Source: Caryophanales bacterium (GTDB lineage: Bacteria; Bacillota; Bacilli; CAJFEE01). Taken from it: a stretch of 64,000 nt of DNA. Below the pieces are notes generated by a model. That model saw only the letters and a list, made by a program, of their open reading frames with translations. It had not been told where the DNA came from and made no database searches. The position numbers and the translations under genes were made by a program. Where the stretch lies: NCBI GenBank assembly GCA_029256085.1, contig JAQSYP010000001.1, positions 1-64,000 of the forward strand, read 5' to 3'. The first letter of the stretch is position 1. Each line of letters starts with the position of its first letter. Below, in pieces: positions 57,975 to 64,000 of the stretch.

Positions 57975-58110
57975 AGTTTAATCCAAAAATATTTTTAATC
58001 CATTGTTCCAGATTTATAATCCAAAACGAATTTTTTTAAGCCATTGCCCCAAATTTATGATCCAAAACGAATTTTTTTAAGCCATTAACCAAGTTTTATA
58101 ATCCAAAAAC
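57975..58110 (-). repeat. 20-21-nt array, family B (copy B3, reverse orientation)
   Basis: ATCC/AGCC keywords every 20-21 bp; GGATTA... when read on the minus strand. A longer unit of about 41 bp (ATCCAAAACGAATTTTTTT plus AGCCATT...) is also repeated. Confidence 0.85.
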
Positions 58111-58196
58111 AAATTTCATGAATTGGCTTCATCATATTTTCTACACAAAATAATATTATCATAAAATATTATAAATATAATAGAAAGGATGGCAAC

Positions 58197-58670
58197 ATGA
58201 AAAAACTATTATTTTCCATAATATTTTTAATGCTGTTAGTAACTGCGTGCTCGCAAAAAGCCGAAGAACAACCGGTGAAAACTCCTGATACTACGCAAGC
58301 TCAACCTATGCAGTATGTACTTGGTAGTAATGATTGGAGTGTTATAACGTCTAGAACACCTGATGCTAAAATTCTTGAAGCCTATCAATATACTATAGAA
58401 AATCCTGATCCTTTAGCTCATATTCCGTGTTACTGCGGTTGTTATGAGTTAGACGGACACACTAGTGTAAGAGACTGCTTCGTCGACTCTGTAGACGGTA
58501 AAATTGTAAATCTTGATAACATGGGCTTTGGCTGAGGTATTTGCGTCGATATTGTCCGTGAGACAAAATTAGAGCTGCAAAACGGTAAAGACTTAAAAAC
58601 TATAAGAAATCAAATTGATGAAAAATACAAGGCAATTGCAGAACCTACACCAACACCAATGCCACAATAA
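58197..58670 (+). CDS. CYCXC (PCYCGC-motif) lipoprotein, probable selenoprotein with UGA at codon 113
   Basis: Lipoprotein: signal MKKLLFSIIFLMLLVTAC with Cys18 lipobox (LVTAC). The domain has HIPCYCGCYELDGHTSVRDC, the hallmark of PF13798-type PCYCGC proteins. The frame meets TGA at 58533-58535, yet continues GICVDIVRETKLELQNGK and IRNQIDEKYKAIAEPTPTPM before TAA 58668. This continuation is what family members have, and there the TGA position is Cys (Cys-Gly-x-Cys). Length with read-through is 157 residues. A SECIS-like hairpin lies 16 nt past the UGA. I therefore call Sec rather than a stop. SD AAGGATGG. Confidence 0.82.
58533..58569 (+). promoter_or_regulatory. UGA codon and candidate bacterial SECIS hairpin
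   Basis: UGA 58533-58535, then stem ATaTTGTC / GACAAaAT (58550-58556 and 58562-58569) with one A-A mismatch and a five-base loop CGTGA that has G at its second position. Distance from UGA to the tight stem is 16 nt, within the range known for bacterial SECIS. selA, selB and selC are not in the window. Confidence 0.6.
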
Positions 58671-58671
58671 T

Positions 58672-58702
58672 AAAAAGATGCTCGCATTGAGCATCTTTTT
58701 TA
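58672..58702. terminator. Bidirectional terminator
   Basis: AAAAGATGCTC / GAGCATCTTTT between the CYCXC gene and the convergent CcdA-like gene. Confidence 0.92.
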
Positions 58703-59425
58703 GTACCAATATAATATTGAGTCGTAGATTCCAATCAATAGTAAGGTTGTACCGGCTGCAATTTGAAAATACTTACCAACTTTTCTGCTTTTTTTCATTA
58801 ATGAACCACTAAAACCTAAATACGATATTATGCCAATCAAGACAAATACTGGTACCGCCGTACCAAGCGCGAATAATGAAGGTAAAATATAACCATAACT
58901 AATGGAAAGTGAGTAGGGGATAAGTGACCCGAAAAATAGGAAAAACATCGTTGGGCAAAACGCAAGTGAGAATAGGAAACCCATCGAAAATGATCCCCAA
59001 ATACCAGATGCTTTTGTTGAGTTGTTACCTGAAAATAAAATAAATTTAGGTTTCCAAATGCCTAAAAGTACTAGCCCAGTTAAAATTAGTAAAGGACCAA
59101 TTGTTTTTCTAATCCATGGGAAGTATGTTGGTAATTCATCTTGTAATTCACGTCCGGCTATCCAGACTATTCCACCTAAAAGCATAAATGCTAGAACCTT
59201 ACCGATCGTAAACGAGATGATATTCTTCCAACTTACACCTTTTTGAAGCGAACTATTGCTATAGAGGGTTATTGCACTAATATTCCCAGTTAGTTGACAT
59301 GGAGCGAGTGTGCCGACAATACCTAGTAAAAAGGCAAAGATAGCAGGAATAGAACGAGCAGCATTTGCGATATCCATCGTCTGACTCATTAGCTGGTTAC
59401 TTATTTGATTTATAGTAGAAAACAT
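58700..59425 (-). CDS. CcdA-like cytochrome c biogenesis / thiol-disulfide transporter
   Basis: 241 aa, six TM helices. The two membrane Cys that shuttle electrons in CcdA/DsbD-beta are visible: GTLAPCQLTGN (helix 1) and LAFCPTMFFLFF (helix 4). Would move reducing power from cytoplasmic thioredoxin outward, presumably to the adjacent CYCXC protein. ATG 59425 has AAGGAG; a frame open further upstream lacks an SD. Convergent with the selenoprotein gene. Confidence 0.9.
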   Translation of the reverse strand: MFSTINQISNQLMSQTMDIANAARSIPAIFAFLLGIVGTLAPCQLTGNISAITLYSNSSLQKGVSWKNIISFTIGKVLAFMLLGGIVWIAGRELQDELPTYFPWIRKTIGPLLILTGLVLLGIWKPKFILFSGNNSTKASGIWGSFSMGFLFSLAFCPTMFFLFFGSLIPYSLSISYGYILPSLFALGTAVPVFVLIGIISYLGFSGSLMKKSRKVGKYFQIAAGTTLLLIGIYDSILYWY

Positions 59426-63262: not shown

Positions 63263-64000
63263 TGTTAAGCCCCTTTCTACGATTCTTTAACTTAAGGAAT
63301 AAACCGATTAGTACAAATCCACCATTTAGTGCACCAAACGCACTTAATACTTTAATGTTTGGTGGCTCTTCCTTAACCGGTCCACCATGACCGTGCCCCC
63401 CAGCTTCTTCTTCATTTGCCGAGTCGTCATGTCCACCTTCAGAATCGCCATGACTATCTTCGGAATCACTATGGCCGTCTTCTTCTTTAGTAGAAGAATC
63501 ATCATGACCTGAATCTGAATCACCATGACTATCTTCAGAGTCGCTATGGCCGTCTTCTTCTTTAGTAGAAGAATCATCATGACCTGAATCTGAATCATCA
63601 TGACTTTCTTCAGAGTCGCTATGGCCGTCTTCTTCTTTAGTAGAAGAATCATCATGACCTGAATCTGAATCACTGTGCCCATCTTCAGAGTCGCTATGAC
63701 TATCTTCTTCTTTAGTAGAAGAATCATCATGACCTGAGTCTGAATCACCATGACTGTCTCCAGAATCACTATGCCCATGTCCTGAAGCTGATGCAGAATT
63801 GTTATTACTTCCTACATACCAATCAAGACCAAGTGTTAAAGGAGATAAAAATAAAACTAGAATAAGTGATATGTTAAAAGCTTGTTTTTTTGGTACTACA
63901 ATTCCATTTTTAAGTATATAGCTAACAAATGATAAAACGATTCCAGTTGGTATTAAGAAAACAGCGTATCGGCCTAAATCACTAAAGTGCTGTATCCCAC
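63255..64000 (-). CDS. His/Asp/Ser-repeat membrane protein (partial, 5' end beyond window)
   Basis: 247 visible residues, no stop up to the window edge. Two TM helices (VFLIPTGIVLSFVSYIL; ISLILVLFLSPLTLGL), then a low-complexity loop of about 125 residues in which HDDSSTKEEDGHSDSEDSHG recurs every 25 aa (75 bp in DNA; four copies at 63482, 63557, 63632, 63707), then a C-terminal TM (LSAFGALNGGFVLIGLFLKL) and basic tail. About 25 His and many Asp make the loop a likely extracytoplasmic metal-binding region (Zn, Ni, Cu or Co). It overlaps the polyferredoxin gene. I do not recognise the family. Confidence 0.82.
   Translation of the reverse strand, partial: GIQHFSDLGRYAVFLIPTGIVLSFVSYILKNGIVVPKKQAFNISLILVLFLSPLTLGLDWYVGSNNNSASASGHGHSDSGDSHGDSDSGHDDSSTKEEDSHSDSEDGHSDSDSGHDDSSTKEEDGHSDSEESHDDSDSGHDDSSTKEEDGHSDSEDSHGDSDSGHDDSSTKEEDGHSDSEDSHGDSEGGHDDSANEEEAGGHGHGGPVKEEPPNIKVLSAFGALNGGFVLIGLFLKLKNRRKGLNNE
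63405..63780 (-). repeat. 75-bp in-frame tandem repeat
   Basis: Four nearly identical units spaced exactly 75 bp (plus-strand CTTCTTTAGTAGAAGAATCA at 63482, 63557, 63632, 63707), with diverged edges. Whole codons, so copy number can change without a frameshift. Confidence 0.95.

Follow-up and report, generated by a model that had tools for sequence, protein, structure and literature searches.

An in-frame UGA very probably decoded as selenocysteine in a PF13798 lipoprotein gene of Bacilli, with a counterpart in Thermomicrobium roseum

We propose that the UGA codon at position 58533 of the window, the 64,000-nucleotide stretch of DNA analysed here, is decoded as selenocysteine (Sec) within a PF13798 gene, a reading to which we give a probability of about 0.96 from sequence comparison. 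The call draws on the Sec-decoding machinery of the source genome, on a TGA that 20 other genes of Bacilli and one gene of Thermomicrobium roseum carry in the equivalent column, on the co-occurrence of that codon with selA, and on a covarying bSECIS hairpin downstream of it; together these bear out the first-pass annotation, which had called the gene a probable selenoprotein. The gene and its surroundings are laid out as follows.

58182..58188, + strand: likely ribosome-binding site AGAAAGG, 8 nt ahead of the ATG, seen in the sequence itself
58197..58670, + strand: predicted selenolipoprotein gene of PF13798 (PCYCGC), coding for 157 residues including Sec113, from ATG at 58197 to TAA at 58668-58670
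58197..58250, + strand: predicted lipoprotein signal peptide, closing with lipobox VTAC, in which Cys18 would be lipidated; the Cys18 column is invariant and the PF08139 match weak
58428..58442, + strand: CYCGC motif (C78, C80 and C82, all invariant), with invariant H88 and C94 close by
58533..58535, + strand: TGA, the probable Sec113, opening U-x-x-C with C116 at 58542-58544; T. roseum and the 20 other Bacilli genes share TGA at this column
58552..58566, + strand: putative bSECIS hairpin 16 nt downstream of the TGA, 5-bp stem TTGTC/GACAA with pentaloop CGTGA at 58557-58561
58672..58700, no strand assigned: terminator-like inverted repeat, bidirectional, adjoining the read-through stop and common to the convergent DsbD_2 gene
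58700..59425, − strand: convergent gene for a DsbD_2/ArsG-like membrane protein, which matches PF13386 and has cysteines in APC and FCP

Read directly, the frame 58197-58670 holds a single in-frame TGA (58533-58535) with 44 codons beyond it, and its product is MKKLLFSIIFLMLLVTAC...IPCYCGCYELDGHTSVRDCF...MGFGUGICVDIVRETKLELQNGKDLKTIRNQIDEKYKAIAEPTPTPMPQ, where U stands for the TGA codon. The claim that these 44 codons form the normal C-terminal part of the family holds, as the score against PF13798 (curated cut-off 25 bits) rises from 45.9 bits for the protein stopped at the TGA to 95.1 bits for the read-through form, and the match, which ends at profile position 101 if stopped, then extends to position 153 of 153. 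The PCYCGC motif occupies residues 77-82 and the lipobox VTAC residues 15-18; lipidation at Cys18, which is invariant in 44 aligned proteins, is predicted, and the PF08139 match falls below its cut-off. The convergent DsbD_2 gene scores below the cut-off of the ArsG-type permease model NF040495 (141.8 vs 200 bits), and its product is a possible but unproven redox partner of the selenolipoprotein. In the gap directly 5' of the selenoprotein gene lies a 41-bp tandem repeat of about three copies (57988-58116). Further along the window, a repetitive open frame on the minus strand (63344-63778, with units IQTQVMMILLLKKK...) found no match in a Pfam search and is probably a low-complexity repeat read in one frame rather than a gene.

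Ten columns are invariant across the 44 aligned proteins (C18, Y63, C78, C80, C82, H88, C94, C/U113, C116 and T151), among them seven Cys/Sec, with the lipobox Cys counted, and one His. The alignment with PF13798 proteins that the first-pass annotation had proposed gives a full-length match with Cys at the Sec column, so the UGA stands where homologues carry Cys, as in bacterial selenoproteins. The earlier expectation of a CGxC pair in the Cys-only members is best widened to CxxC, since CGVC, CEIC, CLVC and CANC all occur there.

Sec in this family is previously known. NCBIfam model NF041379 is already named 'CYCXC family (seleno)protein', and a 2026 review, in its entry for OS_HP4, lists that selenoprotein under PF13798 with the motif UxxC (PMC13188914). 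U113-x-x-C116 is the sole CxxC-type pair in the window protein, so it most likely corresponds to the UxxC given for OS_HP4. The window protein thus shares family and Sec in UxxC with these entries as the review and the model describe them, but it is a Bacillota lipoprotein that misses the equivalog cut-off of NF041379 (62.6 bits, E 2.7e-17, vs 90 bits). All 44 aligned members match that model at E ≤ 0.001, the best at about 80 bits as converted from its E-value. With the window protein at 62.6 and the T. roseum protein at 55.6 bits, the lineage lies outside NF041379 as curated. A Cys-form PCYCGC lipoprotein of PF13798 is known from Parageobacillus (AOT13_14730; PMC13068155), and plasmid-borne Cys-form relatives are annotated as 'PCYCGC motif-containing (lipo)protein'. 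These have the same domain, lipobox and Cys/His pattern as the window protein, but carry a Cys codon in place of the TGA, mostly lack the SECIS pairing and mostly occur in selA-free genomes. The literature searched contained no description of a Bacilli Sec lineage of PF13798.

The fold of the protein bears on an alternative that concerns function and is compatible with Sec. An AlphaFold model with Cys in place of Sec has pLDDT 95-98 from residue 41 and places residue 113 just ahead of a helix spanning residues 114-128; a sequence search of solved structures returned no relative. The protein could be a remote CcmH-like thiol oxidoreductase of cytochrome c maturation, as CcmH, a three-helix fold, is the top match in both Foldseek and VIA-align and a Ccm cluster that includes a PF03918 protein is encoded in the source genome, yet we consider this unlikely. 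The Foldseek E-value is 0.89, and the VIA-align Z scores (5.8 for 2hl7 and 4.8 for 2kw0) are under 8, a range that according to the tool's own note commonly arises by chance. The hhalign match (73.9%) covers a stretch of 27 columns that leaves the CxxC misaligned, and the LRCxxCQ motif of CcmH stands in another register. Searched against PF03918, the window protein gave no match at E ≤ 10, and among the 44 members a single one matches, at E 0.035. We do not claim CcmH homology, the matches being suggestive and not significant.

The machinery needed to decode UGA as Sec is encoded in the source genome (2.63 Mb in 17 contigs), where the search for selA, selB, selD and tRNA-Sec (selC) that the first-pass annotation had proposed found all four. 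A profile search places selA on contig 15 (E 2.7e-167, 556.7 bits, over the cut-off), together with selB (372.6 bits, over the cut-off) and, adjoining selB, a tRNA-Sec with anticodon UCA (64.4 bits vs 47); selD scores 399.8 bits. At least two further genes of this genome bear TGA at a Sec position: selD itself (...SSKAGUGCKIG..., L074:1393-2445, contig 4) and the formate dehydrogenase alpha gene fdhA (...QARIUHSPTVAGLA..., L011:11845-14817, contig 15), which lies close to selB and tRNA-Sec. Also on contig 15, near selA, is a Ccm cluster of System I type in which CcmE, CcmF, CcmH, CcmB and CcmC score over their Pfam cut-offs (L012:7711-14320). Members of the class Bacilli usually use system II for cytochrome c maturation.

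The same TGA recurs in relatives. PF13798 matched in 161 of 399 sampled genomes of the class Bacilli, and the high-scoring copies among the matches listed were all free of a stop. When the low-scoring group was re-read on both strands, 19 loci in 18 genomes proved to have TGA where the window gene has it. Together with the window gene and a copy in Bacillus sp. cl95 (L013; 52% identity in the best segment, TGA in MGFG*GVCVDI), these make up a Sec set of 21 genes; TGA stands at column 113 in 21/21 of them and Cys in the other homologues. Two loci were kept outside the set. L044 has Cys at the column and, later on, a TGA in a shifted frame; L096 has no TGA at column 113 in its CYCGC frame. The L044 copy (L044:1477-1794, genome G221) appears as two separate PF13798 matches and is apparently frameshifted. 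Counting the window genome, 19 of the 399 sampled genomes carry a PF13798 copy with TGA exactly at column 113.

The distribution of this codon follows that of the Sec machinery. Over the whole sample selA exceeds its cut-off in 85/399 genomes, so Sec is not rare in the class Bacilli, which corrects the earlier remark that selenocysteine is uncommon in Bacillaceae. Bacillus sp. cl95 and every one of the 19 TGA genomes of the sample have selA; of the 141 genomes with PF13798 but not the TGA, 24 have selA and 117 lack it (Fisher's exact test, P = 3.9e-13, with one sub-threshold genome omitted). Of the 20 TGA genomes, cl95 included, 18 have a tRNA-Sec match, and the two without one are an assembly 79% complete and one in 420 contigs. 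Among eight Cys-form genomes, only G069 has a tRNA-Sec, and it also has selA.

A bSECIS is a hairpin shortly 3' of the UGA with a small loop and a G within the first two loop positions. In the window gene, the hairpin noticed in the first pass, 16 nt downstream with a G in its loop, is present (stem arms 58552-58556/58562-58566), and its CGTGA loop opens at nt 22 past the UGA with G second. Folded alone it is no more stable than shuffled sequences (z = -0.03), so a single hairpin is weak evidence and the claim is carried by comparison, in which it proves conserved and covarying over the 21 Sec genes. The innermost four pairs form in 21/21, and at the pairs 21-33 and 24-30, each joining third codon positions, both sides have changed in 8/20 and 13/20 distinct sequences, respectively. 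The covariation score is 0.564 vs 0.19 in shuffled alignments (0/500 as high) and at most 0.105 when the hairpin position is slid; because the 21 Sec sequences are related, the shuffle counts are not probabilities, and a fairer yardstick is given by the slid controls together with the Cys homologues. Among 47 distinct Cys-homologue sequences, just 10 form the loop-closing pair 24-30. RNAalifold predicts the same stem by itself. The loop is CGTGA in most Sec genes, CGGGA in L050, L051 and L062, and shifted in L056 and L059.

The codons that follow the TGA bear on two readings in which it acts, or once acted, as a stop. We compared eight gene pairs, and in seven of them pN/pS past the TGA was 0.10-0.27; in the eighth (L046/L072), with 4 differences only, the synonymous excess was unclear. 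These codons thus appear to be mostly under purifying selection. Partial termination is generally to be expected at a Sec codon, and the UGA might be a regulated stop that yields functional forms of 112 and 157 residues depending on selenium supply; the short form retains the CYCGC part and, at 45.9 bits, stays over the PF13798 cut-off. We regard this as improbable, since the comparisons made gave no sign of selection for the short form, and UxxC and the helices after it rank among the most conserved parts of the protein. That a nonsense mutation or sequencing error cut an ordinary Cys protein short, leaving the downstream codons as a relic, is very improbable: it draws on the in-frame TGA only, and on a window hairpin that is by itself unremarkable, whereas the TGA column is identical in 20 other Bacilli genes and T. 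roseum, selA occurs in every such Bacilli genome, the hairpin is conserved and covarying and the downstream codons are constrained. At the level of sequence comparison this truncation is already refuted. A code change, with UGA read as Trp or Cys via a suppressor, is extremely improbable, for although any such code would keep the frame open, a full Sec system with a UCA tRNA-Sec is present, the Sec relatives L048, L051, L052 and L063 use TGA as a real stop, and the TGA stands at the Cys column only and is followed by the SECIS.

Decoding of the TGA as Sec also extends, very probably, to another phylum. A plasmid search found that T. roseum gene WP_012642643.1 (NC_011961.1:573004-573459; L111:5842-6297) has TGA at the window's column, in MTFGUGICIDI, followed by a hairpin with stem ATCACG/CGTGAT and loop CGTGA. 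Its TGA column is identical to that of the window gene and its SECIS the same, but it comes from a different phylum, is carried on a plasmid and is annotated by NCBI as a truncated protein ending at 573321, at the TGA. It is the only annotated example that came to light.

Sec and Cys appear to have replaced one another more than once within the family. Sec/Cys labels placed on an unrooted IQ-TREE phylogeny of 45 proteins require at least three changes, each forced by well-supported branches. The Cys-form gene L053 (L053:1450-1944, genome G056) is sister to the Sec-form L051 with support 100/99 and nested in a Sec clade. It serves as a natural control for the SECIS, as two pairs of its hairpin no longer form. 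Searches of G056 found no selA over the cut-off and no tRNA-Sec match. Most simply, on this unrooted tree, L053 would represent a recent loss of Sec to Cys.

In the mechanism we propose, SelA, SelB, SelC and SelD would insert Sec at UGA 58533, directed by the bSECIS hairpin 16 nt downstream. The product would be an exported PCYCGC/CYCXC selenoprotein, lipid-anchored through Cys18 on the outer face of the membrane, whose mature form would carry the invariant C78-Y-C80-G-C82, H88, C94 and Sec113-x-x-Cys116. The Sec113-x-x-Cys116 pair at the helix start may form a redox centre of one selenol and one thiol; the set of CYCGC, H88 and C94 may bind metal, act as a disulfide relay, or both. A redox UxxC together with such a Cys set points to an extracytoplasmic oxidoreductase or a redox-controlled metal handler. 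From this motif chemistry and the variable gene neighbours, we consider that the protein is probably a lipoprotein that serves thiol/selenol redox chemistry or metal handling at the outer face; a more specific role in copper handling or respiratory enzyme assembly is put forward only tentatively.

Gene neighbours were tallied at the Sec loci alone, within 1.5 kb (4 kb for L013). They include SCO1 and ZnuA (L047), a TlpA-like redoxin (L045), a CsoR-like repressor (L046), COX4_pro (L048), Nramp and ArsR (L055), a cation efflux protein (L066), a multicopper oxidase (L013) and, in the window, DsbD_2. Metal transport and respiratory assembly recur as themes, but no conserved operon partner was found among these neighbours, each family appearing once or twice; as hardly any neighbour recurs and Sec loci alone were tallied, the theme is a lead only.

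Conventional gene annotation would cut these TGA-bearing PF13798 genes short, and about 20 related bacteria share the feature. The Sec lineage, present in 19 of the 399 Bacilli genomes, is missed by NCBI's curated selenoprotein model at its cut-off, and the genes would be captured by lowering the NF041379 cut-off or by building a new NCBIfam model. It is conceivable, though doubtful, that an as yet uncurated selenolipoprotein subfamily, ranging across many Bacilli families to Thermomicrobiota, uses its outer-face site of Sec-x-x-Cys and CYCGC for handling copper or other metals, or as a source of reductant for the assembly of respiratory enzymes, with Sec and Cys forms swapping as the machinery comes and goes. 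The pattern of Sec and Cys on the tree, including L053 with its decayed SECIS in a genome that has no selA over the cut-off, makes the loss of Sec traceable directly among close relatives.
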